Shown here: piece after piece, positions 2-59,002 of the stretch
Position numbering within the stretch: position 1 is the first letter of the stretch
Layout: each line of letters begins with the position of its first letter
Origin: Arthrobacter cheniae
GTDB lineage: Bacteria > Actinomycetota > Actinomycetes > Actinomycetales > Micrococcaceae
Assembly: GCF_003602275.1 (NCBI RefSeq)
Contig: NZ_QZVT01000003.1
Coordinates: 248,001 to 312,000, forward strand
Length of the DNA stretch: 64,000 nt
Direction of reading: 5' to 3'
Position numbers and translations under genes: made by a program
Notes under the pieces: model-generated
Seen by the model: the letters and a program-made list of their open reading frames with translations, nothing else
What the model was told of the DNA's origin: nothing
Databases searched by the model: none

Positions 2-1111
2 TCGACGAACGACGACGGCGCACAGGCAACACCGCCGACCGCCACCGCATTCCCCACTCCGGCGCAAGCAACCCTTGCACCCCGGGCGACCGCGACGAGC
101 GGGTCCGGCAACGGAGATGAGAAGACGGAGGAACCCGACGACGAGGAGAACGAGGAACCCATCACCGCACCGGGTATCGAGGCCCAGGCCCAGCCGGGGC
201 AGGCCGATCTTCCCGACTACAGGAAGCTCGAATGTCCTGCTGCAACCCAGCAGGTCGCCACGAGCGCGGAACTGGCGGATGCGCTGGAGTCAGCCGCACC
301 CGGCGATGTCATCCGGCTCGCCGACGGCGTCTACGGCGGGCCGTTCGTAGCCCGCTCGTCAGGTACGGCAGTGGAGCGGATCTTCCTCTGCGGTGGACGC
401 GGTGCCGTCCTCGACGGCGGCAGCATCAAGGGCGGTTACGTCCTGCACCTCGACCAGGCGGAGCACTGGGCCCTGATCGGCTTCACCGTCCGTAACGGGC
501 AGAAGGGCGTCATGGCCGATGCGACAACCGGAACCTTCATTCAGGATCTGGCCGTCACGGGCATCGGGGACGAGGCGATCCACCTCCGGAACAACAGCAC
601 GGCGAACGTCGTCCTCAACAACACGATCAGCAACACGGGACTGCGCAAACCGAAATTCGGTGAGGGCGTCTATATCGGCTCCGCCGAGAGCAACTGGTGC
701 ACCGTGACCGAGTGCCTCCCCGACCGCAGCGACCGGAACGTCATCGCCGGCAACACGATCAGCGGAACGACCTCCGAGAGCATCGATGTGAAGGAAGGAA
801 CAGTGAACGGCCTGATCATCGACAACACCTTCGACGGGTCCGACCTGTCCGGCGCCGATTCCTGGGTCGACGTCAAGGGGACGGCCTGGACCATCACCGG
901 CAACCGGGGCGAGAACACTCCGCTCGACGGGTTCCAGACGCACGAGATCATCGACGGCTGGGGCACCCGAAACCTGTTCGCCGACAACACGGCCATCGTC
1001 AACGGAGCAGGTCATGCGATAGCGACCCGCCCCGAACGAGCGAACATCGTCGACTGCGCGAACCTCGTGGAGAACGCAGGAGAGGGCCTCACGAACGCGG
1101 ACTGCCGCTGA
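2..1111 (+). CDS. Secreted right-handed parallel beta-helix protein, 5' end outside the window
   Basis: The frame is open from base 2 to the TGA at 1109-1111, so the N-terminus lies left of the window. Visible protein: a Thr/Pro/Glu-rich linker (about residues 1-70), then a Cys-Pro-Ala segment and roughly 290 residues of short Asn/Gly/Asp-rich turns typical of a right-handed parallel beta-helix (pectate lyase/AlgG/NosD fold), e.g. DGGSIKGGYVLHL, GEGVYIGSAESNWC and DSWVDVKGTAWTI. It ends in a Cys-containing AGEGLTNADC tail. It is a close paralogue of the proteins at 54199-55272 and 51341-52645, including the conserved cysteines, which probably form disulfides outside the cell. It lies directly upstream of ugd copy 1, as its paralogue lies upstream of ugd copy 3. 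A role in modifying or degrading a uronic acid polysaccharide (C5-epimerase or lyase) is inference; no catalytic residues were assigned. Confidence 0.8.
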   Translation, partial: STNDDGAQATPPTATAFPTPAQATLAPRATATSGSGNGDEKTEEPDDEENEEPITAPGIEAQAQPGQADLPDYRKLECPAATQQVATSAELADALESAAPGDVIRLADGVYGGPFVARSSGTAVERIFLCGGRGAVLDGGSIKGGYVLHLDQAEHWALIGFTVRNGQKGVMADATTGTFIQDLAVTGIGDEAIHLRNNSTANVVLNNTISNTGLRKPKFGEGVYIGSAESNWCTVTECLPDRSDRNVIAGNTISGTTSESIDVKEGTVNGLIIDNTFDGSDLSGADSWVDVKGTAWTITGNRGENTPLDGFQTHEIIDGWGTRNLFADNTAIVNGAGHAIATRPERANIVDCANLVENAGEGLTNADCR

Positions 1112-1218: not shown

Positions 1219-2655
1219 ATGACCATCACCCACATCTCGGAAGCACAGTCGACCTCGAGCGACTCCCCCATCATCGAACAGCCGCGTATGTCGGTGATCG
1301 GTACGGGCTACCTCGGCGCAACCCACGCCATCTGCATGGCCACCCTCGGCTACGACGTCGTCGGCGTCGACGTCGACGAGAACAAGGTCGCGGCCCTCCA
1401 GTCCGGGCGGGTGCCCTTCTTCGAGCCGGGACTCCCCGAGCTCCTGCGCACCGCACTCGACTCCGGGCGCCTGCGCTTCACCACCGATTTCGCGGATGCG
1501 GCAGCGTCCGCCGACGTCCACTTCATCTGCGTGGGCACCCCCCAGGCGAAAGATTCTCCCGCCGCCGACATGCAGTACGTCGATGCCGCTGTCTCCCGGC
1601 TCGCCGCGCACCTGGACCGGCCTGCGCTGATCGTCGGGAAGTCCACGGTTCCCATCGGGACGGCGGATCGGCTGACCACCCTGGTGCAGGAGATCGCGCC
1701 GGCCGGTACTGCGGTCCAGCTGGCCTGGAATCCCGAGTTCCTGCGGGAGGGCTACGCAATTCAGGACACCCTGCGACCGGACCGGCTCGTGTTCGGAGTC
1801 AGCTCCGACTGGGCTCGCGAGCAGCTGAGCCGCTGCTACACCGCGCTGCTCGCCGCCGAGGTTCCCCTGGTGGTCACGGACCTGGCCACCGCCGAACTGG
1901 TGAAGGTCGCGGCCAACTCGTTCCTCGCCACCAAGATCTCCTACATCAATGCCATGGCCGAGGTCTGCGAGGCGACCGGAGCTGATGTCAGCCTCCTGGC
2001 GCGGGCGCTCTCGTACGACAGCAGGATCGGCGGACGATTCCTCAAGCCCGGCCTCGGTTTCGGTGGCGGCTGCCTGCCCAAGGACATCCGTGCCTTCGCG
2101 TACCGCGCCGAGGAACTCGGGGTCGGGCAGGCCGTCGCCTTCCTCCGTGAAGTGGACAGCATCAACGTCCGGCGCCGTCACCGCACGGTGGACATCGTGC
2201 GGGACCTGGTCTCCGGAAATCTGGCCGGCGCCAGGATCGCCTGCCTAGGTGCTGCCTTCAAGCCGAACTCCGACGACATCCGTGATGCCCCTGCCCTGGA
2301 CGTGGCCCGCATGCTGCAGCAGGAGGGCGCGTCGGTCACCGTGTTCGACCCGGAGGCGATGGACAACGCCCGCAGGGCCTACCCGCAGCTGAGCTACGCG
2401 GACAACCTCGTCGAGGCCGTCCTCGATGCCGACGTCGTCGTCCTCCTGACCGAATGGGACGAGTTCACGGACGCCAATCCGGAGATCCTGGGGCGCCTCG
2501 TGTCCTCGCGGCGGATCGTCGATGGACGCCACGCCCTGAACGCGGACGCGTACCGCTCCGCCGGGTGGGAGTACCGCGCCCTCGGCCGTCCCGAGCATCC
2601 GGCAACAGCTGTCTTCCTTGCCGACGAGCCGCTGCCGGTGGCCCTGAGCGCGTAG
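1219..2655 (+). CDS. ugd: UDP-glucose 6-dehydrogenase, copy 1
   Basis: This cytoplasmic enzyme oxidises UDP-glucose to UDP-glucuronate with two NAD+. The frame extends upstream, but the ATG at 1219 has a GGAG six bases before it and gives 478 residues, about family size. The Rossmann NAD motif GTGYLG is at about residues 28-33. The AWNPEFLREG segment and the catalytic Cys in GFGGGCLPKD (about Cys285) are intact, as is the C-terminal UDP-binding segment (CLGAAFKPNSDDIRDAP). A C-terminal extension ending in a YRALGRPE-like segment is shared with copy 3 (52713-54122) but not with copy 2, so copies 1 and 3 form one subfamily. It follows the beta-helix gene by about 107 bp. A strong hairpin after the stop ends the unit. 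It probably supplies precursor for a glucuronate-containing polymer. Confidence 0.95.
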   Translation: MTITHISEAQSTSSDSPIIEQPRMSVIGTGYLGATHAICMATLGYDVVGVDVDENKVAALQSGRVPFFEPGLPELLRTALDSGRLRFTTDFADAAASADVHFICVGTPQAKDSPAADMQYVDAAVSRLAAHLDRPALIVGKSTVPIGTADRLTTLVQEIAPAGTAVQLAWNPEFLREGYAIQDTLRPDRLVFGVSSDWAREQLSRCYTALLAAEVPLVVTDLATAELVKVAANSFLATKISYINAMAEVCEATGADVSLLARALSYDSRIGGRFLKPGLGFGGGCLPKDIRAFAYRAEELGVGQAVAFLREVDSINVRRRHRTVDIVRDLVSGNLAGARIACLGAAFKPNSDDIRDAPALDVARMLQQEGASVTVFDPEAMDNARRAYPQLSYADNLVEAVLDADVVVLLTEWDEFTDANPEILGRLVSSRRIVDGRHALNADAYRSAGWEYRALGRPEHPATAVFLADEPLPVALSA

Positions 2656-26385: not shown

Positions 26386-26628
26386 GGTTGGCCATCCTTC
26401 TATTGCAAAGTTCCTTGCTCAGGGCAGTCGGAGTCTCATCGCTCGAAAATTTAGGCCCGCTCCAGACGAAGTAGAGTCTAGACCCACGCCGGACGGACAA
26501 CGGGCGCTCGCTGACAGGTCGTGTCGTCGGCCATCCAGGGATCAGCGCGTGACCTGACGAGCACGAGTTGGGCGATAGACTCAAGGAGTCACGCGGGGGT
26601 TAGCCGCGGTCTCTTGAAAGGTCTCGCC

Positions 26629-28086: not shown

Positions 28087-28132
28087 CCAGCGCGTCGCGG
28101 TCCGGCGTCGCGCTACACAGTATGGGGAACTT

Positions 28133-29578: not shown

Positions 29579-29612
29579 CGCCCGCTTTCGCCACCCACTA
29601 AGGACAACCTGA

Positions 29613-45316: not shown

Positions 45317-45351
45317 GTAGGACTCCCCGGTGAGTTGTTCTATGAGACCAC

Positions 45352-45391
45352 AGGCAAGCCCAACGGGGAATCATCCCCGTTGGGCTTGCCT
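45352..45391. terminator. Intercistronic hairpin between iniB-like and iniA-like genes
   Basis: A perfect 18-bp inverted repeat (45352-45369 and 45374-45391) with a 4-base loop lies 15 bp after the IniB-like stop. There is no T-run on the minus strand, so it may be a partial terminator or an mRNA stabiliser that lowers GTPase expression relative to the repeat protein. Confidence 0.7.
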
Positions 45392-45405
45392 TCGTTGTGC
45401 TGCGA

Positions 45406-46698
45406 TCAGAGCGACGAGTCGTCCACCGAGACATCGGTATCGACGACGACATCCAACTCGTTGTCGACGAAGATCGCCGATTCGTCGATGGAGGTGTATT
45501 CCACCGTCGTGTTGTCGGTCAAGACCTCGTTGAACGAGTTCTCCAGCTCGACCTCGGCAACGATGGAGTTGTCGACCTCGTTGAACGAGTTGTCCAGCGC
45601 GACGTCGGTGTCGATGACGGTCGAGGTCTCGTTGAACGCGTCCTCGATCACTACGTCGGTGTTGAGCGAGTTGTCGGAGTTGAACGAGTCCTCGAGCTCC
45701 ACGTCGATCTCGGTCGAGTTGTCGGTGTTGAACGAGTCCTCGAGCTCCACGTCGATCTCGGTCGAGTTGTCGGTGTTGTCGGTGTTGAGCGAGTTCTCCA
45801 GTTCGACATCGATCTCAGTTTCGACCGAGTTGTCCGTGTTGTCCGTGTTGAAGGAATCGTCGACGTCCACGTCCACGTCCGTGTTGTCGGAGTTGTCGTT
45901 GAACGAGTCCTCGAGCTCCACGTCGATCTCAGTTTCGACCGAGTTGTCGGAATTGTCGTTGTTCGAGTCTGTGGTGTTGCCGATCTCGACCTCCGCAGAG
46001 CCGCTCGCGTTGACCTTGGTGGAGCTGTCCTGCGAGTGGTCATCGGAGTTGTCGACGGAGTTGTCGACCTCGGCGTCGCCGTTCGCGGCAACCGCGTTGT
46101 TACCCGAAGCGACGTAGGCCTCGTTGTCGAACATCTGGCTGACGTCACCGTCGGCCCAGATGTTCTGGTTCACCGACTGGTCGGTGATCGTGTCCCGGTC
46201 ATCCACGGACGAGGTGTAGGAGTAGTTGTTGACGACGTGCAGGAGCTGCTGGACAGCATTGCCGTGGTCGTTGTCGTCCCCACCGGTGGCTGGATTGCCC
46301 GGATTCGTCGTTCCGCCCCCGCCGCCCGGATTCGTCGTGTTGCCGCCGCCGCCCCCGCCGCCCGGATTCGTCGTGCTGCCGCCGCCGCCCCCGCCGCCCG
46401 GATTCGTCGTGCTGCCGCCGCCGGTTCCTGGCGTGTAGGCGCCGGGGGTGACATCACCCGAGGAGTTTCCGCCGGTGTCGTACCTGCGGTCGAACGAGCT
46501 GTCGTTGTCGCCGCCGAAGCTCACCGGGGCGTAATCCAGGACCACGGGCATGACGGCGTCGACGTCGTCCATGCAGACGTTGCTGAGGCCTGCCTGTGCG
46601 AGGGCCGCCTCCGGGTCGCTGATGAACTCGTTGGCCGCATCCGCGTCATGGAAGAGGTTCATGAGGAAGTCGAGGAGATCTGAGGCAAGAGTAGTCAT
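45406..46698 (-). CDS. IniB N-terminal domain protein with Gly-rich and acidic repeats
   Basis: A 430-residue protein with AAGGAA before the ATG. Residues 1-60 form the IniB N-terminal domain (LLDFLMNLFHDADAANEFIS, then PEAALAQAGLSNVCMDDVDA). Next comes a Gly-rich block of NPGGGGGGG-(S/N)TT repeats (about 95-140). A helical NAVQQLLHVVNNYSY segment and a 190-residue acidic Asp/Asn/Ser repeat region (about 225-415, unit like STEIDVELEDSFNTDN) follow. No signal peptide is visible. The codon pattern is regular and the repeats are strongly conserved as protein. It resembles mycobacterial IniB, whose function is unknown. A filamentous or beta-solenoid structure is a reasonable guess. Confidence 0.85.
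   Translation of the reverse strand: MTTLASDLLDFLMNLFHDADAANEFISDPEAALAQAGLSNVCMDDVDAVMPVVLDYAPVSFGGDNDSSFDRRYDTGGNSSGDVTPGAYTPGTGGGSTTNPGGGGGGGSTTNPGGGGGGGNTTNPGGGGGTTNPGNPATGGDDNDHGNAVQQLLHVVNNYSYTSSVDDRDTITDQSVNQNIWADGDVSQMFDNEAYVASGNNAVAANGDAEVDNSVDNSDDHSQDSSTKVNASGSAEVEIGNTTDSNNDNSDNSVETEIDVELEDSFNDNSDNTDVDVDVDDSFNTDNTDNSVETEIDVELENSLNTDNTDNSTEIDVELEDSFNTDNSTEIDVELEDSFNSDNSLNTDVVIEDAFNETSTVIDTDVALDNSFNEVDNSIVAEVELENSFNEVLTDNTTVEYTSIDESAIFVDNELDVVVDTDVSVDDSSL
45680..45775 (-). repeat. Two tandem 48-bp repeats inside the iniB-like gene
   Basis: Two apparently identical 48-bp units (45680-45727 and 45728-45775) encode two copies of a 16-residue acidic unit. Related but diverged units extend from about 45500 to 46000. 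The near identity at DNA level points to recent duplication, so copy number may vary between strains. Confidence 0.85.
46310..46430 (-). repeat. Gly-rich coding repeats of the iniB-like gene
   Basis: Three to four near-identical units of about 36 bp encode NPGGGGGGG-(S/N)TT blocks. On the plus strand they read as repeated CCGCCGCCCGGATTCGTCGT. They form the flexible linker of the protein. Confidence 0.8.
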
Positions 46699-46781: not shown

Positions 46782-46840
46782 GGTAGGTCCACCCCTACCC
46801 CGGGCCACTGATTAGGGGTTTCGCGCGCTCCGATTAGGGG
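46782..46840. promoter_or_regulatory. Putative operator upstream of the iniB-like gene
   Basis: A perfect inverted repeat GGTAGG-TCCACC-CCTACC (46782-46799) lies about 85-100 bp upstream of the iniB-like start. Two ATTAGGGG copies follow 22 bp apart (46811-46818 and 46833-46840), running into the end of the luxR-like gene. TAGGGG also occurs at 51264-51269, upstream of the beta-helix gene. A binding site for the adjacent LuxR protein is a possibility. Confidence 0.35.
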
Positions 46841-48935
46841 CACTCACGGGTGAACCGCCGCCGGCGGTAGTACCCGGGGTGGTTGTCTGCTCGAGTGAAA
46901 GACGAAGCCGTGCCAGCAGTTCCGAGCGCGACGACGCACCGTAGCGGCGCCTGATACGCGCCACATGGTGCTCCACCGTCCGGGGCGAGATGAAGATCTC
47001 CTCGCTGATCTCGCGGTACGTCTTGCCCTGCAGGACCAGGTGGGCGATCTCGCGTTCGCGGCCACTGAGCATGGGGGTGTCACCCCTCGGCGCACTGTCG
47101 CGGGGAACGCCGCGCTCGCCGGCTCCCGCGCTCGGAGGTCGCGCGATGCCCACCTGCGTGCCGGGCCGCTCCTGGGGTGGCCTCGTCACCTCCGGCCGTA
47201 TCAGCCGCTCCCGGACCGGTCGCAGGTCGCGTGCACACGAAAGCAACCTGGTCATGTCTTTTCGCTCTGCGGCACGCGCCGAAGCATGACCGGCCAGGCG
47301 CGCACCCTCCCAGGGAAAACCTGCTGCCGCAAGGTTCCTCGCCGCAAGCTCGACGAAGTCGGTGTCGAAACGTTCGGCAAGTACCGTCACCCATGCCTTG
47401 CCTGCACCGGCGAACGTGGCTGCCAGGGGGTAGCTCATGGCCTGGTTCACCAACGCCGCCGCATGCGGTCCGAGGTCATCCGGGCGCTCCTGCAGAAGGG
47501 CGGCCTGGACGGCGGACCAGTGCAGGGGCACGGACCACAGGGGAGGATTGCCCAGCCGTGAGAGAAGCAGCCATGCTTCTTCCAGATGCGGCTTGAGCCT
47601 CTCGACGTCGCGCAGCCGGGCCGCGGCGATGACGAGTTCGTTGAGCGGAAGGACTGCCATCAGGTCCACGGAGACGTGAAGAAGTGCCTCCCGTGCGCGT
47701 TGCCAGGCCTGAACGAGCGCGGAGGTGTCCCCCGCGCGCCGTGCCAGCCCCACCTCGAGTGCCTGCAGCAGCAGTTCATCGCGTGGAACGAGTTGCTGCT
47801 CGAGCCTCCCCGCGTCGACGATGAACGTCCGTGCAAGGGCCGGCTGGTCGAGGAGCATGGCCGCCCATCCGCCGAGGAGGCACAGGCGCGGACGCAGGAC
47901 CGGACCCCCCTGGCCGCTTGCGAGAGCTGCCTGGATGACGGAGAGCGCGGTCTGCGGGCTGCCGGCCAGGAGCCCGACGATCGCGGCGAAACACGCGGGC
48001 AACTCCGGCGCGGGCGAGCCCTGCCCCGTCGCGTTCAGGGTGTCGGAGGCACGGATCAGCATCGGTAGCGCGCCGTACGGTTCCGACTCGAGGGACAGCA
48101 GGGCTCCCTCGGCCAACAGCATGTACGCGACGTCCTTCAGGGATGGGGAAGGAGCCGCGGCTCCACCGCCGACCATGGAACGGGCGCCCGTTGCATCACC
48201 GGCAGCGAGCAGTGCCAGGGCGCCGAGAGGCTCGACCCCTGGTGATTGGAGCGCTGCTGCCCACTGTTGTACGTCCGCCGCACGGGACATCATGCCCCGG
48301 TGCGACCAGACTGCGCAGGACACCTGGACCGCCCGCGCGAAATCGGGGAGCACCAGCTGGGAATCGGGTGGCTGCTGCCCGAAATAGATATCTAGGATGC
48401 GGGAGGCGGTGTCGAGGTCACCGACGCCAAGGGCTGCCTCAGCCCGGCGCGGTGCAGTGGACAGGGAATCCGCGCCGGCGGCGACCGCGAGGTCCAGCAG
48501 TTCCAGCGCACCGGCGGGATCAGTGCCGAGGAGGGCTGTGCCCTGGTGCCCGAGCACGTCCGCAAGACGCTCGTCCACGTACCCTTCGGCAGCGAGCCCA
48601 CGGGCGAGTGCACCAAGGGGCAAGGATTCGGAACAGTAGAGGTCGACGAGGGCGCGCTGCAGCCGACGTACCTGGTACACGTCGGCGTCCCTCAGCATGA
48701 CGGTGCGAAGCTCGAGCGATGGCCGCCCGTCGGCCTGGAGGAAGCCGGCACTCGTCGCGCGGGCCGCCAGTTGCTCGGCAGGAACACCTCCGCTGTACAG
48801 CAGTGGCGGAACGAGACCGGGGACACTGAATCCGATGCACAGGGCGAGGACGACCTCGTAGGTTGCTGTGTCCAGGTCCTGCGGATCGATGCCTGTTGTC
48901 ATGCGCACGTGTGTTTCAAGGTAGTTGGCCCCCAT
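46812..48935 (-). CDS. LuxR-type transcriptional regulator with long helical sensor part, no P-loop
   Basis: A 707-residue protein. The ATG at 48935 lies two bases after the Hsp70 stop and is preferred over a TTG six bases upstream. The bulk is an Ala/Leu-rich helical (TPR-like) array. The C-terminal LuxR helix-turn-helix (about 635-695) reads LSGREREIAHLVLQGKTYRE and SPRTVEHHVARIRRRYG. No Walker A motif was found, unlike in the four LAL proteins. It has the same gene order as the regulator found between Hsp70 and IniB genes in other actinobacteria. It probably controls this operon, with the membrane Hsp70 as a possible input. Confidence 0.85.
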   Translation of the reverse strand: MGANYLETHVRMTTGIDPQDLDTATYEVVLALCIGFSVPGLVPPLLYSGGVPAEQLAARATSAGFLQADGRPSLELRTVMLRDADVYQVRRLQRALVDLYCSESLPLGALARGLAAEGYVDERLADVLGHQGTALLGTDPAGALELLDLAVAAGADSLSTAPRRAEAALGVGDLDTASRILDIYFGQQPPDSQLVLPDFARAVQVSCAVWSHRGMMSRAADVQQWAAALQSPGVEPLGALALLAAGDATGARSMVGGGAAAPSPSLKDVAYMLLAEGALLSLESEPYGALPMLIRASDTLNATGQGSPAPELPACFAAIVGLLAGSPQTALSVIQAALASGQGGPVLRPRLCLLGGWAAMLLDQPALARTFIVDAGRLEQQLVPRDELLLQALEVGLARRAGDTSALVQAWQRAREALLHVSVDLMAVLPLNELVIAAARLRDVERLKPHLEEAWLLLSRLGNPPLWSVPLHWSAVQAALLQERPDDLGPHAAALVNQAMSYPLAATFAGAGKAWVTVLAERFDTDFVELAARNLAAAGFPWEGARLAGHASARAAERKDMTRLLSCARDLRPVRERLIRPEVTRPPQERPGTQVGIARPPSAGAGERGVPRDSAPRGDTPMLSGREREIAHLVLQGKTYREISEEIFISPRTVEHHVARIRRRYGASSRSELLARLRLSLEQTTTPGTTAGGGSPVSAPNRSARNP

Positions 48936-48937
48936 GA

Positions 48938-51064
48938 TCAAGCCACCGTTACAGAGGACGAGGCGACGGACGATTCACCAGGAGACGGCGGATCGGCGGG
49001 TGTCGGATCGGCTGATGAGAAGGTGGGCTCAGGTTCAGGGCCCACGGTCGGCGGTTCGGCGGCCGGCGGGGGCGTGGTCGGGTCCGTGACCGGGTCGGGC
49101 GAAACGGGGGTTGTGGGGTCCACGACAGGAGGTTCCAGAGTGGGATCGACCGGCGTCGGGGGCGGCTCCACCGGAGTCGTAGGGGGATCCACCGGAGTCG
49201 TCGGGGTCGGATCCGAGGGTGCTGGACCCGGTTCGACAGGCGTCGTCGGGGCTGGGGTCGTCGGGGCTGGGGTCGACGGGAAAGGGACGGGCGGCGTGGG
49301 GTCTCCCGGGCTTGTGCCGGGCTTCGAACCGGACGCGGACGAGCCGGCGGCAGAAGGTGAAGGAGCGGGCGCTGCTCCTACCCCTGAGGGCGTCCCGTCG
49401 GCTGCTTTGTCGGATGTCGCTTTCCCTCCCTCCGTCTGTTCCGTAGTCTTGGCGGCGTTTCGGCCCGGAAGGTCCGACGAACCGGAGGGTTCGGCCTCCG
49501 CACCCTTGTCCCCGTCCTTCGGCGCTGGCGCCGCTCCCTCGATCCCGGCTCGTTCCAGGAAGTTCTGACCGAGATCGGGGCCGGCCAGGGGACCGACGTT
49601 CTCCCCATCCCGAGCCTCGTCGAGCGGGGTGGGTGACAGCTCCGTCGGCGTGATGGGCTGGGGCTCCTCGGCGGCCTCCGCCCGTTCGTTGGCCACGAAC
49701 CCCGACAGGGCAGCAAGGCCACCGGGAGCATTGACGGCTGTCGCGGTCGCAACTCCCAGCAAGGCAACTGCCGCCGCAATGGCGCCGACGCGCACTCCGA
49801 TGAGCCTGTTCGGCGTCATGGCTGCCGGACCGTGGCGCGGAACCGCTTCCGGCTTCCTGGCATGCAGTGAGAAGCCTGCTCGATTGACGCGATGTGGCAG
49901 CGCATCGCCGTCCTGCATTTCGCCTGCGATGGAAGCCGGCGTCCCTGCGGCGGGAACCAGCCCCTCGTCCTGGTCCGGAATCTCTTCCAGCACCGCTGTT
50001 GCGAAGGCCGCGCCAAGGGCAACCGATGCCTTCGGGTCCAGGTCTACTGCCAGCGGGCGGTTGAATTCGGCGGACAGGAGCTGCGCGACCAACGGTATGC
50101 GTGATGATCCACCGATGAGCAGGATCGCGGTCAGGTCCTCGGCATCGACCTGCGCACTCGTCAGCGCACAGCGCAGGGTGTCCACCGTCTCGCCCAAGGC
50201 GGGTTCGATCATGGCCTCGAGTTCCGACCGAACCAGGCGTACCTGTGAGTGCGCCCCGGGAAGCATGACCGAGATGGTCGCCTCCGAGTCCGACGAGAGT
50301 GCCTCCTTGGCTTCGGCGCACTCCCTGCGAAGCCTGCTCAGTGCGGCAAGAACCTCGGGCGCGGAGGTGTCCAGGTCCGTGAGATGGACTCCGGGCTCGT
50401 TGATGACGTGACTGAAAACCTCCTGGTCGAAGTCGGCTCCGCCCAGCCGCTCGAGGCCCTGGGGTACTCCGAGGACCGTGAACGCGTTGGAGCCGGTCTT
50501 GCGGACCACGGTCGCGTCGAAGGTTCCCCCGCCGAGGTCATACACAGCCAGGGTGGTTCCGCCTTCGATGTGCTCCCGAGAGGCGTACAACAGCGCTGCG
50601 GCTTCGGGTTCGGTCATCAGGACGACGTCCTGCAGGCCTGCCTCGGCCAGCGCCGATCTCAGGAGTGACTGCCTGTGCTCACCCCACCCGACCGGATGCG
50701 TCAGCGTGACGGACTCCGGGGAACAGCCCTGCCTCTCGGCGGCTACGTCCACCACCCACAGAACGACGGTGGCGAAAAGCTCCTGCGGCAGGACGGCGAT
50801 GTCACCCACCATCAGGGGCACTTCGTCGCCTATCCGGCGCTTGAACTCCCGTGCCAGGCGCTCCGGCTGGGAACTTCCCCTGCGTTCGGCGACCTCGCCG
50901 ACCAGTCGGGTGCCGTCCTGGCCGATGAAGACGACCGTCGGTATTACCGAGGCCCTGCTGCCCAGCGCCAGGACCTGTGGCTCGCGAAGCCCCTGCGGTC
51001 CTGTCTCGATGACAGCTGCTGCCGTGAAACTTGTTCCTACATCAATGCTGAGACCGTAGCTCAT
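48938..51064 (-). CDS. Membrane-anchored Hsp70-family protein with Pro-rich extracellular tail
   Basis: A 708-residue protein with GGGGAAGCT before the ATG. Residues 1-370 form a DnaK-type ATPase: DVGTSFTAAAVIE (8-20), AVYDLGGGTFDATVV (about 172-186) and LLIGGSSRIPLVAQLL (about 313-328). There is no recognisable DnaK substrate-binding domain. Instead a linker leads to one hydrophobic helix (GAIAAAVALLGVATATAV, about 425-445), then about 260 residues rich in Pro, Thr, Ala, Glu and Asp, ending in a Ser/Val tail. The ATPase should be cytoplasmic and the tail in the cell wall. It is the first gene of the ini-like operon and may sense the envelope. Confidence 0.9.
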   Translation of the reverse strand: MSYGLSIDVGTSFTAAAVIETGPQGLREPQVLALGSRASVIPTVVFIGQDGTRLVGEVAERRGSSQPERLAREFKRRIGDEVPLMVGDIAVLPQELFATVVLWVVDVAAERQGCSPESVTLTHPVGWGEHRQSLLRSALAEAGLQDVVLMTEPEAAALLYASREHIEGGTTLAVYDLGGGTFDATVVRKTGSNAFTVLGVPQGLERLGGADFDQEVFSHVINEPGVHLTDLDTSAPEVLAALSRLRRECAEAKEALSSDSEATISVMLPGAHSQVRLVRSELEAMIEPALGETVDTLRCALTSAQVDAEDLTAILLIGGSSRIPLVAQLLSAEFNRPLAVDLDPKASVALGAAFATAVLEEIPDQDEGLVPAAGTPASIAGEMQDGDALPHRVNRAGFSLHARKPEAVPRHGPAAMTPNRLIGVRVGAIAAAVALLGVATATAVNAPGGLAALSGFVANERAEAAEEPQPITPTELSPTPLDEARDGENVGPLAGPDLGQNFLERAGIEGAAPAPKDGDKGAEAEPSGSSDLPGRNAAKTTEQTEGGKATSDKAADGTPSGVGAAPAPSPSAAGSSASGSKPGTSPGDPTPPVPFPSTPAPTTPAPTTPVEPGPAPSDPTPTTPVDPPTTPVEPPPTPVDPTLEPPVVDPTTPVSPDPVTDPTTPPPAAEPPTVGPEPEPTFSSADPTPADPPSPGESSVASSSVTVA

Positions 51065-51340: not shown

Positions 51341-52645
51341 ATGATTCCTTCCCTCAGCCTGCGCTCGGCACAACGAGCAGCGGTGGGCGTCGTCGTTACC
51401 GCCATCGCCCTGTCCTGTCTGGCATCTCCCGCATCCGCCGCAGTCATCACCATCCTCGGAGATGGGAAGAGCCTTGCCGACACGGTGCAGCAGAACGGCA
51501 GTTTCACGGCATCCGTCCAGGCGCCGACGGGATCGACGGTGAAGTTCAAGCTGGACGGCACCTATCTGGGCCAGGACACCGAGGCTCCCTACACCTGGCC
51601 CGTGACGGCGGGCACCGGACTGCATAAGCTCAATGTCCGGTGGGACACGTCTACCGGACGACAGGAGGCGACCGTGAACTTCTCCATAGGAACCACGACG
51701 CCGGCACCGGTTCAACCGGCACCGCCGGCTCCCGCTCCCGCACCCACGCCACCTACGACGTCGCCCGCCCCCTCGCCCGCTGGTGTTGTCCAGGTGTCCA
51801 CTGCGGCCGGACTGAAGTCCGCCCTTGCCTCCGCGCAGCCCGGACAGGTGATCGAACTGCGGGACGGCCGTTACATCGGCGCGTTCACGGCGTCGGCCTC
51901 CGGTACGGCATCCGCGCCGATCACCCTCCGCGGCTCCCGCAACGCCGTCCTCTCCACAGGATCCACGTCGTCGGGCTACGGCCTCCACGTCACGGGGTCG
52001 AACTGGCGCATCACCGGCATCTCCGTCGCCTCGTCGGCCAAGGGCATTGTGCTCGACGGCTCGAAGAACACGGTCATCAACGGTGTCGACGTCGGCACCA
52101 TCGGCGCGGAAGCGGTGCATTTCCGCTCCGGCAGCTCCGACGGCGCAGTCCTCGACTCCTTCATCCACGACACCGGACTGACCCATCCCGAGTACGGCGA
52201 GGGCATCTATATCGGTAGCGCCAAGAGCAACTGGGTCAGCGGGGCACCGGACCGGTCGGACCGGATCACGGTGCGTGGCAATCGGGTCACCAATACTTCC
52301 GCCGAGGGCATCGACATCAAGGAGGGGACCACGGGCGGCGTGATAACGGGGAACGTGTTCACCAACTCGGGTTTCTCCGGCGCGAACTACGCGGACTCCT
52401 GGGTCGACGTGAAGGGCAACGGCTACCGCATCGAAGGCAATTCCGGCCTCGGGACGAAGCTCGATGCCTTCCAGGTCCACTCCGTCCTGGCAGGGTGGGG
52501 CATGGGCAACAGCTTCACGAGCAACACCGTGCAGGGCGGCGTGCCGGGCTATGAGGTCTGGGTCCAGTCGGCATCGCTCGCGACCACCATCGCCTGCAAG
52601 GCCAGCGGGGCGGCCCGCGGGCTCAGCAACATCGCCTGCCGCTGA
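51341..52645 (+). CDS. Secreted right-handed parallel beta-helix protein with N-terminal Ig-like domain
   Basis: A 434-residue protein with a signal peptide (about residues 1-30, ending in ASPASAA). A small beta-sandwich-like domain (about 32-118, with VKFKLDGTYLGQDTEAPYTW) and a Pro/Ala linker follow. A beta-helix of about 290 residues is homologous to 2-1111 and 54199-55272 (GEGIYIGSAKSNWV, IDIKEGTTGG, DSWVDVKGNGYRI, and the end GLSNIACR). It is divergent from the Hsp70 operon, with a 276-bp gap. A strong hairpin follows its stop. It is likely a polysaccharide-acting enzyme or binding protein of the cell surface; the catalytic type is unknown. Confidence 0.86.
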   Translation: MIPSLSLRSAQRAAVGVVVTAIALSCLASPASAAVITILGDGKSLADTVQQNGSFTASVQAPTGSTVKFKLDGTYLGQDTEAPYTWPVTAGTGLHKLNVRWDTSTGRQEATVNFSIGTTTPAPVQPAPPAPAPAPTPPTTSPAPSPAGVVQVSTAAGLKSALASAQPGQVIELRDGRYIGAFTASASGTASAPITLRGSRNAVLSTGSTSSGYGLHVTGSNWRITGISVASSAKGIVLDGSKNTVINGVDVGTIGAEAVHFRSGSSDGAVLDSFIHDTGLTHPEYGEGIYIGSAKSNWVSGAPDRSDRITVRGNRVTNTSAEGIDIKEGTTGGVITGNVFTNSGFSGANYADSWVDVKGNGYRIEGNSGLGTKLDAFQVHSVLAGWGMGNSFTSNTVQGGVPGYEVWVQSASLATTIACKASGAARGLSNIACR

Positions 52646-52712: not shown

Positions 52713-54122
52713 CTACACCACGAGGCTTGGCGTCTCGTCGCGCACGTCGAACGCCAGTTCCACGGTGGCGGCCTGGGCCGGCCGACCGAGGGCCCGGTAC
52801 TGCCAGCCCTTCGAGGTGTAGTCATTGGCGTTCAGCGCGTGGCGTCCGTCGAGGATCCGACGATGACTGACCAGGGCACCGAGGGCGTCCGGATCCGCGT
52901 TACGGAACTCGGACCACTCCGTGAGCAGGGCGACGACGTCGGCCTTGTCCACCGCCTCGGCCATGGAATCCACGTAGTTGAGGTCCGGGTAGGCGCGGTG
53001 GGCGTTCTCGTTGGCCTGGGGGTCGTACACCGAGACGATGGCCCCCTCGAGGTACAGCAGGCGGGCGACGTCGAGCGCCGGCGCATCCCGGACGTCGTCG
53101 GAGTTCGGCTTGAACGCGGCCCCCAGGGCCGCCACCCGTACCCCGGCGAGGCTGCCGCCCGCCAGTTCACGGATGAGGTCGACTGTACGGACGCGGCGTC
53201 GGTTGTTGATGGAGTCCACCTCGCCGAGGAAACTGACGGCCTGTCCGACCCCGAGCTCCTCCGCGCGGTGCTTGAACGCCCTGATGTCCTTCGGGAGGCA
53301 GCCGCCGCCGAAGCCGAGGCCGGGCTTCAGGAAGCGACCGCCGATGCGGTCGTCCAGGCTGAGTGCCTTGGCGAGCTGGTTGACGTCGGCGCCGGTCGCC
53401 TCGCAGATTTCCGCCATCGCATTGATGAACGAGATCTTCGTGGCGAGGAAGGAGTTCGCTGCGACCTTCACCAGCTCGGACGTCGCAAGGTCGGCGACGA
53501 TCACCGGTGTCTCGAGGTCGAGGATGGGCTTGAAGACCCTGCGGAGCTGCTGCTCGGCCCAGCTGGAGCTCACACCGAAGACGAGGCGATCGGGGAAGAG
53601 CGTGTCCTGGACGGCGAAGCCCTCGCGGAGGAATTCGGGATTCCAGGCGAGTTCGAGTTCCGTGCCGAGCGGGGACAGCGACTGCACCATGGAGGTGATG
53701 CGAGCTGCTGTTCCGATCGGGACGGTCGATTTCCCGACGAGCAGGACCTTCCGGTCGATCCGCGTCGCCAGCGCCGTGAAGGCGGCGTCGACGTACTTCA
53801 GATCCGCCGCCGACGAATTCGGAGCCTGTGGCGTCCCGACACAGACGAAGTGCACGTCGCCGAAAGCTGCGGCCTCGTCGAAATCGGTACTGAAGCGCAG
53901 GCGGCCTGTCGCGAGGGCCTCCTGGAGCTTCTCGGGGAGGCCTGGCTCGAAGAAGGGCACACCACCGGCTGACAGCAGGTCGATCTTGCGCTGGTCCACG
54001 TCCACGCCGAGGACCTCGAAGCCCATGATCGCCATGCAGACGGCGTGGGTCGCTCCGAGATAACCGGTGCCGATCACCGTCACGCGGGGTGCGGGCTGGT
54101 CGTTGTGCTGGGAAGTGCTCAT
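52713..54122 (-). CDS. ugd: UDP-glucose 6-dehydrogenase, copy 3
   Basis: A 469-residue protein with AGAGGACG before the ATG. It has NAD motif GTGYLG, FFEPGLPEKL, GKSTVPIGTA, AWNPEFLREG, the catalytic Cys in GFGGGCLPKD (about Cys275) and LGAAFKPNSDDVRDAP. It is closest to copy 1 in the whole chain and in the shared C-terminal extension (YRALGRP). It is the last gene of the cassette GT2, membrane beta-helix, secreted beta-helix, ugd, and lies 76 bp after the beta-helix gene. It should feed UDP-glucuronate to the GT2 synthase. Confidence 0.95.
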   Translation of the reverse strand: MSTSQHNDQPAPRVTVIGTGYLGATHAVCMAIMGFEVLGVDVDQRKIDLLSAGGVPFFEPGLPEKLQEALATGRLRFSTDFDEAAAFGDVHFVCVGTPQAPNSSAADLKYVDAAFTALATRIDRKVLLVGKSTVPIGTAARITSMVQSLSPLGTELELAWNPEFLREGFAVQDTLFPDRLVFGVSSSWAEQQLRRVFKPILDLETPVIVADLATSELVKVAANSFLATKISFINAMAEICEATGADVNQLAKALSLDDRIGGRFLKPGLGFGGGCLPKDIRAFKHRAEELGVGQAVSFLGEVDSINNRRRVRTVDLIRELAGGSLAGVRVAALGAAFKPNSDDVRDAPALDVARLLYLEGAIVSVYDPQANENAHRAYPDLNYVDSMAEAVDKADVVALLTEWSEFRNADPDALGALVSHRRILDGRHALNANDYTSKGWQYRALGRPAQAATVELAFDVRDETPSLVV

Positions 54123-54198
54123 CGTTCGTCCTCTTTTGGGTAGGGGGTATCGCGGATTGTTGAAAGGTGGTCTGGTGAGGGGTAGTGGGAGAAAGTGG

Positions 54199-55272
54199 TC
54201 AGCCGGAGGTACAGGGTTCGTTCGACAGGCCTTCTCCGGCAGCGGAGGCCGTGTTGCTGCATTCGACGACGTTGTCGCGCACGGGCTTCAGTGAGTACCC
54301 GAGACCTGGTCCGTTGACCTGGGCGACGTTGTCACGGAAGACGTTCTCGGTGCCCCAGCCGTCCACGATCTCGTGCGTCTGGAATCCGTCCTGCGGGGAA
54401 TCGGCCCCGGCATTGTCTGCAATGACCCAGCCCCTGCCTTTCACGTCGACCCAGGAGTCGGCCTCGACGATGCCCGACCCGTCGAAGCTGTTGTCGCGCA
54501 GGATTCCGTCCGAGGTGCCCTCCTTGATGTCGACATTCTCGGAGGTGGTTCCCGAGATGGTGTTGCCGGCAATCTCGTTACGGTCACTTCGGTCGGGCTC
54601 GCAGTTGCTGATGTCGCACCAGTTGCTCTCGGCCGTGCCGATGTAGATGCCCTCACCGAACTTGGGCTTCCGCAGGCCCGTGTTGCTGATCGTGTTGCCG
54701 ATGACCCGGTTGTCGGTACTGAACTTCCGGAGGTGTATCGCCTCGTCGCCGGTGGTGGTGACCGTCAGCCCCTGGATCAGCAGGTTGGTGCCCTGGTCCA
54801 CCATGACGCCCTTCTGGCCGTTGCGGACCGTGAAGCCCTGGAGTACCCAGTACGCGGAGTCCTCGAGGTGCAGCACATAGCCGTCGTCGGTCGTACCGCC
54901 GTCGAGGATGCTCTCCGCGTCGCCGCAGACCGTGATGGGCTGCTCCGCAGTTCCAGATGCGGACGCTGCGAAATTACCCGTATATACGCCCGGTCCGAGG
55001 CCGATGACGTCTCCCGGCCGGGCGGCGTCCAGGGCGTTCGACAGATCGGCCGAATTCCCCACCTGCACGGTCGACGCAGGGCATTCGACCGGAGATGCCA
55101 CAGGTCCGGGTTCAGGGCTTGCGTCCTGCGTGGAAGATTGCCCGGGGTCCGGCTGGTCACCGGCCGTGTCCTGGTTGTCGGCCCTGTTCAGGCCCACCAC
55201 GACGACGACGGCTGCAACGACCAGGGCCAGCGCTGCGAGGAGCAGGGCCAGGATCCCTCCGCGGCGGGTCAC
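54199..55272 (-). CDS. Membrane-anchored or secreted parallel beta-helix protein
   Basis: A 357-residue protein. The GTG start overlaps the upstream stop (GTGA). One N-terminal hydrophobic helix (about residues 6-29) acts as signal anchor. A Pro/Asp/Ser linker precedes the Cys-Pro-Ala motif and a beta-helix: RPGDVIGLGPGVYTG, GEGIYIGTAESNWC, DSWVDVKGRGWVI and the tail AGEGLSNEPC. It is the near twin of the partial gene at 2-1111, also placed directly before a ugd gene. Epimerisation or cleavage of the glucuronate polymer outside the cell is the inferred role. The conserved Cys positions suggest disulfides. Confidence 0.85.
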   Translation of the reverse strand: MTRRGGILALLLAALALVVAAVVVVVGLNRADNQDTAGDQPDPGQSSTQDASPEPGPVASPVECPASTVQVGNSADLSNALDAARPGDVIGLGPGVYTGNFAASASGTAEQPITVCGDAESILDGGTTDDGYVLHLEDSAYWVLQGFTVRNGQKGVMVDQGTNLLIQGLTVTTTGDEAIHLRKFSTDNRVIGNTISNTGLRKPKFGEGIYIGTAESNWCDISNCEPDRSDRNEIAGNTISGTTSENVDIKEGTSDGILRDNSFDGSGIVEADSWVDVKGRGWVIADNAGADSPQDGFQTHEIVDGWGTENVFRDNVAQVNGPGLGYSLKPVRDNVVECSNTASAAGEGLSNEPCTSG

Positions 55273-57113
55273 TGGGCCCGCCGGATGTCATCGATGCGCA
55301 CAATGCCGCGGCTGAGGGTCGTCAAGGGGACACGCTCCTTGTAGGGATCGCGGATGGTCCGCACGCGGAGGTGCCGCTTGCGGGTGAAAGCCGTCGCCAC
55401 GAGTAGCGCCCCGAGCAACAGCCAGATGAAGGTCAGGGGCTGGAAGACGGAATTCATGACGCTATGGACGGTGGGAGCGGGATGCCAGCTCAGCAGGTCG
55501 TTCTCCTCCACCACGGCTCCGGTGGAGGTCTCGTCCCAGATCGCCACGGTTCCATAACCGCCCACGTCGTTGCCGGCGACCCTGGTATCGGGCACGTTGC
55601 CGAGGAGGGAGACGCCGTGCCCGGAGAGCGAGCTCATGGTGTTGCCGGTGATGGACGCAGTAGCGTCCCGGACGTACACGCCGGTGTCGCCGCCGGAGAT
55701 CGTGTTCCTGCGGATATCGGCCTGCGCCCCGGCCTCCCGCACCGCGATGCCCTGCTTGTGCTGGTCCCGGATCTCGTTGTCGATGATGCTCACGCCCTCT
55801 GCACCGTAGTTGACGACGACTCCGACCTCGTTGCCCTGGATGGTGTTGCCCGTGAGGCGCAGCTTGTTGCCGCCGCTGAGCTCGACCCCGTAACGCCCGT
55901 TGTCGGCGACGGTGCTTCCCAGGATGCGGTTCCCGCCATAGGTGACGACCGCCGTGCCGACGGCGTTGGGGCCGTCCGCGAGGGGCTGGCCGTCGAGAGA
56001 GATTCCGTTCCTGCCGTTGCCGCTCGCCGTCACGTCCTGCAGCTCGACCCGCGTGCTGGACCGGCCGACGGTGATGCCGTCGACCGCATTGTCCATCGAC
56101 GTGGTCCCGGTGATGGTCGCGTCGGTCACGGAACGGTGCAGCACCAGTCCGTCGACCAGGCTCCCGCTGATGGCGGAGTCACGGATGGCGATGTCCCGGG
56201 CGTTGGTGATGAACAGGCCGAACGCGTTGTCCTTGACCGTGAGGTTGTCGATGCCGGCGGTGACCACGCTGTAGTCGAGGTCCGTCTGGTCGGCCAGGGA
56301 CTTGAGGTCCGCCTCCGGCAGCAGCCGCGCCCCCGCCGGAGCTGCTGGTTCGGCCGCCGTCGCGCCCGATTCCAGGAAGGTACCGGCGGTGTCGGTACCG
56401 GTCAGTGCGAGGCCACCGGTGTTGCCGCTCCAGAACCCGAGTGATGACACCGTGGCGTGGGAGAACGATGCGTGACCGCCGATCACCCGGACGTACGCTC
56501 GCCCGTCCGAGGTGTCGGTATCCGCGCCGGAACCGTCCCAGCTGGTGATCTCGACGTCGGACTCCTCGGTGCCCGCAACCGTCAGCGAGCCGCCCAGGGC
56601 GACGATCGACACGAAGGCATCCTCGTTGCTCTGCAGGCGGACGGTGATGCCCTCTCCGCCGGTGAACGCGAGCGTTGCTCCGGGAAGGACCACGATGCTC
56701 TCGGTCAGCATGAACGTCGACGACGCGAGTTGCTTGAAGGTGTCCGGGGCGAGCAGGAGCAGGTCCGCGGCGGTGTACGGTTCCGTGCGGGCAGGCAGCA
56801 CGAGGGTGTTCGTCACCCCGGTGTGGAGGCGGTAGGGACCCTCGAGCCCGTCGACGCGCCAGCGGGCCGCGGAGGCGATGGTGCGCACGTACACCAGCCG
56901 CTCCTCCTCGCTCTGGACGACTCGGGCTTCACTGCGGGGGTCCCCGGTGTACAACTCGCCCTGCACGTTGCCGTTCGCGGCGATCTCGTTGCGTCCGAGG
57001 GCGTCGACCTCGGACTTCTTCCAGAGGTTGCCGGCCGCGAGGAAGCCGGCTGCGACAAGCGCGATGAAGGCGACCGCGAGCGCGCCCAGGAGGATGGGTT
57101 TCCGGCTGGTCAT
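55269..57113 (-). CDS. Large parallel beta-helix protein with membrane helices at both ends
   Basis: A 614-residue protein. The hydrophobic helix at about 7-29 is followed by a 100-residue lead domain, then beta-helix turns from about 130 to 540 of NosD/AlgG (CASH) type, with many DNAFGLFITNA- and NTIQGNEVGVVVN-like coils. A second hydrophobic helix (FIWLLLGALLVATAF, about 560-578) is followed by a basic cytoplasmic tail of about 35 residues. The middle would lie outside, tethered at both ends next to the synthase. Its ATG overlaps the GT2 stop (ATGA) and its stop overlaps the next start. The topology would suit a polymer-modifying or export-guiding subunit, analogous to AlgG, but this is inference. 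Confidence 0.83.
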   Translation of the reverse strand: MTSRKPILLGALAVAFIALVAAGFLAAGNLWKKSEVDALGRNEIAANGNVQGELYTGDPRSEARVVQSEEERLVYVRTIASAARWRVDGLEGPYRLHTGVTNTLVLPARTEPYTAADLLLLAPDTFKQLASSTFMLTESIVVLPGATLAFTGGEGITVRLQSNEDAFVSIVALGGSLTVAGTEESDVEITSWDGSGADTDTSDGRAYVRVIGGHASFSHATVSSLGFWSGNTGGLALTGTDTAGTFLESGATAAEPAAPAGARLLPEADLKSLADQTDLDYSVVTAGIDNLTVKDNAFGLFITNARDIAIRDSAISGSLVDGLVLHRSVTDATITGTTSMDNAVDGITVGRSSTRVELQDVTASGNGRNGISLDGQPLADGPNAVGTAVVTYGGNRILGSTVADNGRYGVELSGGNKLRLTGNTIQGNEVGVVVNYGAEGVSIIDNEIRDQHKQGIAVREAGAQADIRRNTISGGDTGVYVRDATASITGNTMSSLSGHGVSLLGNVPDTRVAGNDVGGYGTVAIWDETSTGAVVEENDLLSWHPAPTVHSVMNSVFQPLTFIWLLLGALLVATAFTRKRHLRVRTIRDPYKERVPLTTLSRGIVRIDDIRRAQ

Positions 57114-58480
57114 GCGACGGCCTCCCGGGTGTCCTGTGCGGGAGTAGCTGCCTCGGTCTTGGTCTCCAGGCTCACGGCATCCTGGCCGTCACCACCGATC
57201 TGGTCGGCGTGCCGGGTCAGCCAGCCCTGCTTGTTCATGGTGAAGAAGGCATAGAGCTTGATCGGCAGTGCCACGAGGATCACGGCGAAGGCGAGGACGG
57301 GCAGGATCAGGATGTCCTGCGGGTGGCGGCGGAGATGCGAGATACCGCGGATCCCGCGGCCGAGCAGCAGCCAGCAGAGCGCGGCGCTGACACCGAGCAC
57401 CGTGAGGTCGAGGCGGTTGAAGATGAGATAGAACATGGTCAGCCCCATGGTCAGCGGCGTCAGCAGGATCTGCAGGACGGTGACCTTGGTGATGAACGGG
57501 GTCCGCCACAGCCACCCGGTGCCGATGGCGGTGAGGTAGCAGCGGTAGGAGTTGCGGCTCCAGCGGATGCGCTGCTTCACGAAGGCCCGGAAGCTGGCGG
57601 GGAACATCGAGAGGGCACGTGCCGTCGACTGGTGGACGGTCTTGTACCCGGAAGCCAGGACGAGCCAGGTGAGGCGCCCGTCGTCGCCCGAGATGCACCG
57701 CTTGCCCAGGAAGTACTCGTTCTCCAGGTGCTCGAGGACGGGCAGGACGGCGGATCGACGGTAGACAGCCGTCCGGCCCGAGATGCACGGGACGGCCCCC
57801 GCGGCACCCATGGCCGGGACGTAGTCCAGGTACCTGAGGTTCACGAGCCAGTCGGCAACCCGCCGCCAGACGCTGGTTTCCCGCTTGTAGACGGTCTGAT
57901 GGGTTCCCACGGCCCCCACGAGCGGGTCGATGAACGGCATCTGCACGTTCTGCAGGAGATCGGGCTGCCACCAGGTATCCGAGTCCGTGAGCACCAGGAT
58001 CTCGTGCTGCGCAAGGCGGATGCCGGCACCGAGGGCGGATCGCTTGCCCACGTGGTGGAACAGGATCGGCTTGATCACGGGATCCTGGAGTGCCTCGATC
58101 CGTGCGTAGGCGTCGAGGTCCTCGACGTCGAGGACGATGATGATCTCGTCCGGGTGCTGGGCGCGCCACGACTCGAGGGCGCTCATCAGGATGTCCGGAT
58201 CCTCGTGGAAGGACGGCACCACCACGGAGGTCGTCGTCCGATAGTTGGTCACGATCGGTTGCGCCCGGTGGGACAGGATGAAGCGGTAGAGCCACAGTCC
58301 CCAGACGATCGCGCCGGCAACGGCGATCGGGAAGTAGGGCGAGACCTCGACCCAGAAGGCGCTGACGTCCGTCCAGTCGAAACCGGAGGTCCAGGCGGAC
58401 CACCGGGCACCCAGTGCCGCGACGACGAAGTCGACGGCGGGGGTCGGTGTGGATGGTGCTGCAGGCGCAAAGGGGTGCAT
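57110..58480 (-). CDS. Membrane family 2 glycosyltransferase (processive, hyaluronan synthase-like)
   Basis: A 456-residue protein. The ATG at 58480 with GAGGA six bases upstream is preferred over the frame's start at 58597. One or two N-terminal helices are followed by the GT-A domain: TSVVVPSFHEDPDILM, LTDSDTWW (DxD-type), GDDGRLTWLVLASGY and the processive Q-x-x-RW motif KQRIRWSRN. Four C-terminal helices follow. This is the layout of hyaluronan, chitin and alginate-type synthases that polymerise and export at once. With Ugd and beta-helix proteins in the same overlapping operon, the polymer probably contains glucuronate. It is first in the operon. Confidence 0.87.
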   Translation of the reverse strand: MHPFAPAAPSTPTPAVDFVVAALGARWSAWTSGFDWTDVSAFWVEVSPYFPIAVAGAIVWGLWLYRFILSHRAQPIVTNYRTTTSVVVPSFHEDPDILMSALESWRAQHPDEIIIVLDVEDLDAYARIEALQDPVIKPILFHHVGKRSALGAGIRLAQHEILVLTDSDTWWQPDLLQNVQMPFIDPLVGAVGTHQTVYKRETSVWRRVADWLVNLRYLDYVPAMGAAGAVPCISGRTAVYRRSAVLPVLEHLENEYFLGKRCISGDDGRLTWLVLASGYKTVHQSTARALSMFPASFRAFVKQRIRWSRNSYRCYLTAIGTGWLWRTPFITKVTVLQILLTPLTMGLTMFYLIFNRLDLTVLGVSAALCWLLLGRGIRGISHLRRHPQDILILPVLAFAVILVALPIKLYAFFTMNKQGWLTRHADQIGGDGQDAVSLETKTEAATPAQDTREAVA

Positions 58481-59002
58481 CGGATTCCTCGGGCAGGACG
58501 GAATGGCGGGAGGTGCACGACGGTGGGCGTCAGACCGCTCCCCTGCCTGCAGCAGCTCAGCTGCTTCCAGGCGGGGCGCATGGTCCGGAAAGATCATCAG
58601 GGACCTTATGGTCTGAGGCTATGGGAAGGATCCGATCCCGAGCACTACCTGAAAAACCGGCGCTCCTACGTGGTTCCATCCGCATACCTACACGTGCTCC
58701 GGCTCTCCCCCATGCCCCGACCGCATCTCCATCCGCGAGGTCCCGGAAGGCCTGGTCGGAAGGCTGCTCCAAGCCCGTCCTACCCCTCTGACCTGCGCAT
58801 TCATCGTCCGCGCGGAAAGGCAGGACCACCCGGTGCCCGCCCATCGCAGCCGTTTCCACATACTGGTTCCGGGGTCCTGCCGCGTGCCGCGATGGCCACC
58901 TGCCCGGTCGAATCCCCCGACTCGGGTGCACCAAGTGTTAACACAACGCCTACTCGCAGGAAACCTTGCGGACAGGCGGACGAAACCGCCCGGCTTCTGG
59001 GC
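58481..59002. other. Intergenic region upstream of the GT2 cassette
   Basis: No gene is supported in these 522 bp. It must hold the GT2 promoter. CTACCTG (58645), CTACGTG (58666) and CTACACG (58688) lie 21-22 bp apart, about 165-215 bp upstream of the start, and CTACTCG is at 58950-58956. No terminator for the ABC-F gene was recognised. Confidence 0.45.

Follow-up and report, generated by a model that had tools for sequence, protein, structure and literature searches.

Polyuronate production by a synthase acting together with an epimerase and a lyase is familiar from alginate-producing bacteria, in which AlgD is the nucleotide-sugar dehydrogenase, and hyaluronan synthases are encoded in hasA-hasB operons. 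Excerpts of a study of the alginate system likewise place a polymerase, a C5-epimerase fold of the right-handed beta-helix type and a lyase together (PMC4444821). The excerpted text on PsAly depicts a secreted, alginate-degrading enzyme encoded next to chitinase genes, which cleaves endolytically with a preference for polymannuronate, for which syn elimination has been proposed, and whose relatives are almost all uncharacterized proteins, chiefly from Gram-positive bacteria (PMC6796002). Here we analyze a stretch of 64,000 nucleotides from Arthrobacter cheniae (hereafter the window; G000:C37:248001-312000, in which G000 is the assembly of this organism, of 4.02 Mb in 37 contigs) carrying a four-gene set, cassette A, and part of a second version, cassette B. 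We propose that the four genes are likely to constitute a production line for an acidic surface polysaccharide, consisting of a synthase, a modifier with a predicted AlgG fold, a lyase and a dehydrogenase (Ugd) that supplies the precursor.

Architecture of the two cassettes

A first-pass annotation of the window had claimed four minus-strand genes for cassette A, all of which we recovered as open reading frames with the domains attributed to them. It had also noted a small beta-helix gene and a Ugd gene repeated on the plus strand at the left edge, which is indeed the case, and had predicted that a GT2 gene and a large beta-helix gene would lie to the left of base 1; both are found there and complete cassette B. 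The genes are as follows (identities are to the cassette A counterparts).

57110..58480, minus strand: cassette A gene 1, GT2 processive synthase (open reading frame and Pfam; hyaluronan synthases are the nearest solved relatives)
55269..57113, minus strand: cassette A gene 2, large beta-helix protein, 614 amino acids (open reading frame, Pfam beta-helix, predicted AlgG fold)
54199..55272, minus strand: cassette A gene 3, PsAly-type polysaccharide lyase (small beta-helix protein), 357 amino acids (open reading frame, match to 6kfn)
52713..54122, minus strand: cassette A gene 4, UDP-glucose 6-dehydrogenase type, Ugd (open reading frame, Pfam UDPG_MGDP_dh)
G000:C37:244566-245960 (= L009:12566-13960), left of the window, plus strand: cassette B gene 1, GT2 (73% identity)
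G000:C37:245957-247885 (= L009:13957-15885), left of the window, plus strand: cassette B gene 2, large beta-helix protein, 642 amino acids (43% identity)
2..1111, with the first 119 bases left of the window, plus strand: cassette B gene 3, PsAly-type lyase, 409 amino acids when entire (open reading frame, 59% identity)
1219..2655, start at 1219 or 1288, plus strand: cassette B gene 4, Ugd (69% identity)
51341..52645, plus strand: third PsAly-type lyase, outside the cassettes, 434 amino acids (open reading frame, 44% identity)

The open reading frame of the cassette A GT2 spans 57110-58597, with a likely start at 58480 that yields a protein of 456 amino acids, matching database entry P0121. Pfam domains in this cassette are beta-helix, GT2 and UDPG_MGDP_dh. 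Its GT2 and large-helix genes overlap by 4 bases, as do the large- and small-helix genes, and a 76-base gap precedes Ugd; a 4-base ATGA overlap likewise joins the GT2 and large-helix genes of cassette B, for which the homology-matched spans are C37:244656-245837 and C37:246002-247840, respectively. The third lyase gene is convergent with the cassette A Ugd gene and is found at an equivalent position in L011-L014, half of the eight named Arthrobacter loci (L011-L018). Directly after the cassette B Ugd gene lies an inverted repeat (2689-2736) whose 20-base arms match perfectly around a loop of 8 bases, perhaps a shared terminator.

Conservation of the gene set across actinobacteria

The expectation that the four-gene set would be encountered in other genomes was borne out in samples drawn at the levels of order and class and in two loci of a phylum sample. 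At the order level (238 genomes; GT2 matches with E 1e-60 or better), the synthase is found in 19 genomes with 21 copies, every one of which is followed by a large-helix gene. A small-helix gene lies at most 2 kb from GT2 in 19 copies, the other two loci (L044, L063) stopping at contig edges, and Ugd is present within the fetched stretch in 12 of the 21 (G023 being read from locus L137; L066 holds a fragment at a contig end and L064 a dehydrogenase of another class). At the class level, 36 of 394 genomes match GT2 at 1e-50, and 30 of these do so strongly, with 31 copies in 15 genera and 9 families; the six weak matches (E 1e-50 to 1e-80; G675, G757, G824, G944, G961, G1004) were excluded, that of G944 being a fragment at a contig end with 56% identity. 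Of the 31 copies, 30 adjoin a large-helix gene, the exception being L124, which is cut by a contig edge; 29, all but L119 and L124, have a small-helix gene no farther than 2 kb away, and 25 have Ugd within 5 kb, divergently transcribed in 14 of those. Combining both samples (46 genomes and 48 GT2 copies, with G000, which has two copies, G023 and G233 each counted once), the large-helix gene accompanies the synthase in 47 of 48 copies, and a small-helix gene lies no farther than 2 kb away in 44 of them. Of the four loci that depart from this pattern, three (L044, L063, L124) run into a contig edge. In the phylum sample, matches were obtained in 5 of 396 genomes, our own included, with three genes of the set at L075 and four at L076.

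As a control, we considered four of the six weak class-level GT2 matches (L138-L141), all of which lie outside any cassette, with a beta-helix gene about 2.3 kb away in L139. Each of the 30 class-level genomes with a strong GT2 match encodes a member of the PsAly-type lyase family, as opposed to 7 of the 364 others (Fisher p 1e-38, kinship ignored). Clustering of the other neighboring genes over the 21 order-level loci recovered no further gene family in more than three loci. The four-gene order envisaged in the first-pass annotation therefore stands for the GT2, large-helix and small-helix genes, which are linked, but not throughout for Ugd, which is not always beside the other three. The set is carried by Arthrobacter and many other actinobacteria belonging to several families. 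No description of it was recognized in the open-access literature searched, subscription papers lying outside that coverage.

The two beta-helix proteins

The best solved relative of the small beta-helix protein of cassette A is PsAly of Paenibacillus FPU-7 (6kfn; E 1e-42 over query residues 68-331), the family of which we take to be CAZy family PL31. According to excerpts of PMC6796002, the catalytic residues of PsAly are Tyr184 and Lys221, while Glu181, Glu216 and Asp219 form a metal site and Lys252 probably serves to shift a pKa. The same residues, along with Lys128, stand at the corresponding positions of every one of 65 copies, the three from the window among them (a count that leaves aside the duplicate L009 row, equal to window 2-1111, and matches below 200 bits, such as a 77-bit fragment in L118). 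A hydrophobic N-terminal segment is present in the cassette A lyase, and the N-terminus of the third lyase is hydrophobic and signal-like, with a weak Big_7 match below the cut-off. Judged by its sequence and catalytic residues, the small-helix protein is a member of the PsAly family, part of which thereby gains a genomic home beside a polymer synthase.

The large beta-helix protein has a hydrophobic helix at both ends. The predicted model of residues 92-495 adopts the AlgG fold, matching 4nk6 over 344-345 residues at 1.6-1.7 Å with 15% identity. Its His326 aligns with the catalytic His of relatives bearing the DPHD motif, and this position is His in 69 of 72 aligned rows (L063 omitted, the window protein present twice) and in 28 of 31 further rows. 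We accordingly predict that His326 is the counterpart of the AlgG catalytic base. The surrounding motif reads DGLVLHR in cassette A and DGMVMHR in cassette B, as against YGIDPHD in AlgG, and the entire DPHD motif with its preceding Tyr is found in cassette relatives at L065-L068 and L133, in the same operon slot. The earlier suggestion that the beta-helix partners are epimerases or lyases, to be examined by comparing models and active sites, thus holds for the small helix, a PsAly-type lyase by sequence with its catalytic residues complete, and in part for the large helix, which is AlgG-like by predicted fold but lacks DPHD. Apart from the cassettes, Rhizobium megaplasmids (L079-L082) also encode AlgG-like DPHD proteins; in three of the four loci, the AlgG-like part closes a longer reading frame of about 1250 amino acids.

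The synthase and the dehydrogenase

Among solved structures, those closest to the GT2 protein are hyaluronan synthases, which are also the sole ones to match most of its length (profile positions 119-416 of 442). The roles of the hyaluronan synthase motifs, among them the substrate-binding Lys, the switch-loop Cys, GDDR and WGTR, are taken from excerpts of PMC11750622. Across 34 aligned relatives of the cassette synthase, the DxDT (D166-S-D-T169) and QxxRW (Q303 to W307) motifs, K146 of the GKR motif and the switch-loop C232 are invariant.

The cassette A Ugd displays three Pfam domains and a catalytic Cys motif, GFGGGCLPKD, at residue 270. It scores higher with a UDP-glucose dehydrogenase (322 bits) than with AlgD (201 bits) and, among the NCBIfam models, reaches the cut-off of the subfamily TIGR03026 and misses the equivalog cut-offs for TuaD and AglM. 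On these scores, we assign it to the UDP-glucose 6-dehydrogenase type. The best model for the dehydrogenase of a different class in the L064 neighborhood is also a UDP-glucose 6-dehydrogenase (562 bits, below the cut-off of 757), which favors UDP-glucuronate as the shared need of these loci. The term glucuronate polymer is inferred from Ugd taken together with the hyaluronan-synthase-like GT2.

Divergence of cassettes A and B

The two cassettes lie on one contig in inverted orientation, about 57 kb apart, an arrangement that might point to an artifact of the assembly or to a segment recently duplicated in inverted form. However, the identity between the copies is just 43 to 73%, and in trees of the GT2, large-helix and small-helix proteins, type A (8 copies) and type B (3 copies) each form one clade with support of at least 100/99 and with relatives in other species. 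Further, another genome, G003, has both types, likewise inverted and about 62 kb apart, and G025 has type B alone. We therefore regard such a recent origin as practically excluded and, on sequence grounds, take A and B to be an old divergent pair. The first-pass annotation was right that the cassette is present twice in inverted orientation; its "close paralogues" are deeply diverged. Within the genus sample (38 genomes, our own included), 13 genomes match the large helix, 11 of them strongly; G030 and G082 match only weakly and were not counted as carriers. Taking these counts together with G003, G025 and the separate clades, occurrence is patchy even inside the genus and the two types have had separate histories.

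A proposed pathway and its alternatives

In the proposed production line, Ugd would oxidize UDP-glucose to UDP-glucuronate, which the GT2 synthase would polymerize, alone or alternating with another sugar; like hyaluronan synthase, it would also translocate its product across the membrane. The large helix, anchored at the exit, might act on the emerging chain and convert glucuronate to iduronate at C5. The lyase, with its N-terminal segment serving as an anchor, could set the chain length, release the chain or clear stalled chains as AlgL does, and the third lyase, given its signal-like N-terminus, would act outside the cell. As beta-D-mannuronate and beta-D-glucuronate differ at C2 alone, syn elimination would fit both. 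A more ambitious version is that actinobacteria produce a polymer resembling glycosaminoglycans: a single membrane synthase would incorporate glucuronate, an AlgG-fold epimerase would generate iduronate outside the cell, and a dedicated lyase would govern chain length. Such a system, spread over many actinobacterial families and hidden behind the sole annotation of "beta-helix repeat proteins", would be a Gram-positive equivalent of alginate, and of heparin-type C5 epimerization, that was assembled independently. We put this version forward tentatively, and consider it rather doubtful in its entirety.

Several observations weigh against the proposed production line. Ugd is absent from the fetched stretch of 9 of the 21 order-level copies (L044, L060 and L063 among them being cut by contig ends) and from within 5 kb in 6 of the 31 class-level copies, L119 is devoid of a lyase, two of the four non-own matches in the phylum sample (L077, L078) are without the cassette, the GT2 genes of G713 and G752 each have one in-frame stop, and just 11 of 38 same-genus genomes are carriers. 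The tested substrate of PsAly, in the excerpts of PMC6796002, is alginate rather than glucuronan. In the synthase, GDDG replaces the GDDR of hyaluronan synthases, and WLTR replaces WGTR/WGTSGRK. In the large helix, the residues corresponding to Tyr314, Asp317 and Asp320 of AlgG are Asp, Val and Arg in the window protein, and DPHD is found in none of the 120 best-listed close homologs, which together make its activity as an epimerase doubtful. Moreover, the window copy attains 9 bits (E 0.45) with the NCBIfam equivalog NF038177, the cut-off of which is 700 bits; the DPHD-bearing relatives, at 56-97 bits, also remain below it. The repeats blur the register too, one profile alignment pairing Arg327 with Arg345 instead.

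One alternative is that the large helix is a non-epimerase, that is, an altered AlgG-fold scaffold, a sugar-binding channel or a second lyase attached to the synthase. The missing DPHD motif, the hydrophobic helices at both ends and the tandem large-helix genes at L112, L115 and L117 all suit this idea, to which we grant a substantial, if minority, chance; the retention of His326 in most rows and the full DPHD motif of cassette relatives in the same operon slot speak against it. Alternatively, the polymer might be hyaluronan or a close heteropolymer of glucuronate and hexosamine, with GT2 and Ugd forming a HasA/HasB pair to which the helix proteins are add-ons. The solved structures nearest to the synthase, along with its retained active-site Lys, switch-loop Cys, DxDT and QxxRW, are in keeping with such a product. 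On the other side stand the GDDG motif, the stretch from the channel Arg to the switch-loop Cys, which is 4 residues shorter than in hyaluronan synthases, with the second glucuronate-contacting Arg falling in the gap of the alignment, and the best NCBIfam match, NodC, a one-sugar enzyme, which is far below its cut-off (127 of 550 bits). We consider a hyaluronan-like product possible, though not probable. Finally, the cassette might degrade or remodel a polymer from the environment instead of making one. Such a role would accord with the degradative, secreted nature of PsAly and its neighborhood of chitinase genes, but it appears very improbable when set against the tight linkage to a processive membrane synthase, the frequent linkage to Ugd and the lack of any further gene family in more than three of the 21 compared loci.

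Genomic surroundings

Between and around the cassettes, the window holds further features.

2779-5442, 5439-8252, 32790-35594, 35489-38185 and 46812-48941 of the window, and L009 6805-9465 and 9462-12158, minus strand: large regulators (Pfam on five)
8539-13029, plus strand: Pel-type-looking locus beside cassette B (GT4, 442-amino-acid protein, GH114 protein)
17384-18697: third Ugd gene (sequence match)

Most of the large regulators form overlapping pairs; they are found on either side of cassette B and at two further places. All five that were run through Pfam (2779-5442, 32790-35594 and 46812-48941 of the window and the two of L009) have a C-terminal LuxR-type domain, and four, that is, all except 46812-48941, also have an AAA domain; our guess is that they possibly control polysaccharide genes. 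The locus at 8539-13029 looks like a Gram-positive Pel-type locus: its GT4 scores 168 bits with the NCBIfam PelF model (cut-off 100), and its 442-amino-acid protein, for which no Pfam or NCBIfam match was obtained, could, as a guess, be PelG-like. The region from 16000 to 30000 is of low GC (down to 0.53 versus about 0.67) and contains a tyrosine autokinase, a polyprenyl glycosylphosphotransferase and a weak flippase match, with the third Ugd and a DUF4012 protein (29613-31514) in the same area; it is an apparent Wzx/Wzy-type locus between the cassettes. On the minus strand, two dynamin-type GTPases beside a 430-amino-acid acidic repeat protein with an IniB N-terminal domain make up an iniBAC-like set (41961-46698), and 48938-51064 encodes an HSP70-like ATPase domain followed by a long proline/threonine-rich tail.

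Comparison with known systems

If the proposed production line is correct, a lyase family known from alginate degradation would gain a native role, hundreds of proteins called "NosD-like" and "beta-helix repeat" (490 and 228 homologs, respectively) would be drawn into polysaccharide synthesis, and new enzymes for defined glucuronate or iduronate polymers would come within reach. It makes testable which acidic polymer soil actinobacteria such as Arthrobacter carry and whether it is epimerized.

Compared with PsAly (6kfn), the cassette lyase shares the family and the catalytic residues but is tied to a polymer synthase and has a hydrophobic N-terminal segment. With the mannuronan C5-epimerase AlgG (4nk6), the large helix shares the predicted fold and the aligned His, the full motif being present in some cassette relatives; it differs in its low identity, its terminal hydrophobic helices and DGLVLHR in place of YGIDPHD. 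The hasA-hasB operons have in common with the cassette a hyaluronan-synthase-like GT2 and a UDP-glucose dehydrogenase, to which the cassette adds two beta-helix proteins, one of them of a lyase family, with the GDDR and WGTR motifs altered. The alginate system of Pseudomonas and Azotobacter (Alg8/AlgD/AlgG/AlgL) offers the closest parallel in layout, with a synthase, a dehydrogenase, an epimerase-like protein and a lyase. Yet the matches listed for the cassette GT2 are to hyaluronan synthases and NodC and do not include Alg8 (no search was aimed at Alg8 or Alg44 as such), the cassette lyase is of the PsAly type with a beta-helix, no further gene family recurs around the cassette in more than three of 21 loci, and the epimerase-like protein of the window is without DPHD. 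We propose that the cassette works like the alginate system but do not class it as a member, its dehydrogenase being closer to enzymes for UDP-glucose than to AlgD. Taking these comparisons together, we predict a Gram-positive counterpart of the alginate system, undescribed in the open-access literature searched, and propose that it follows the principle of alginate synthesis using components drawn largely from other families.

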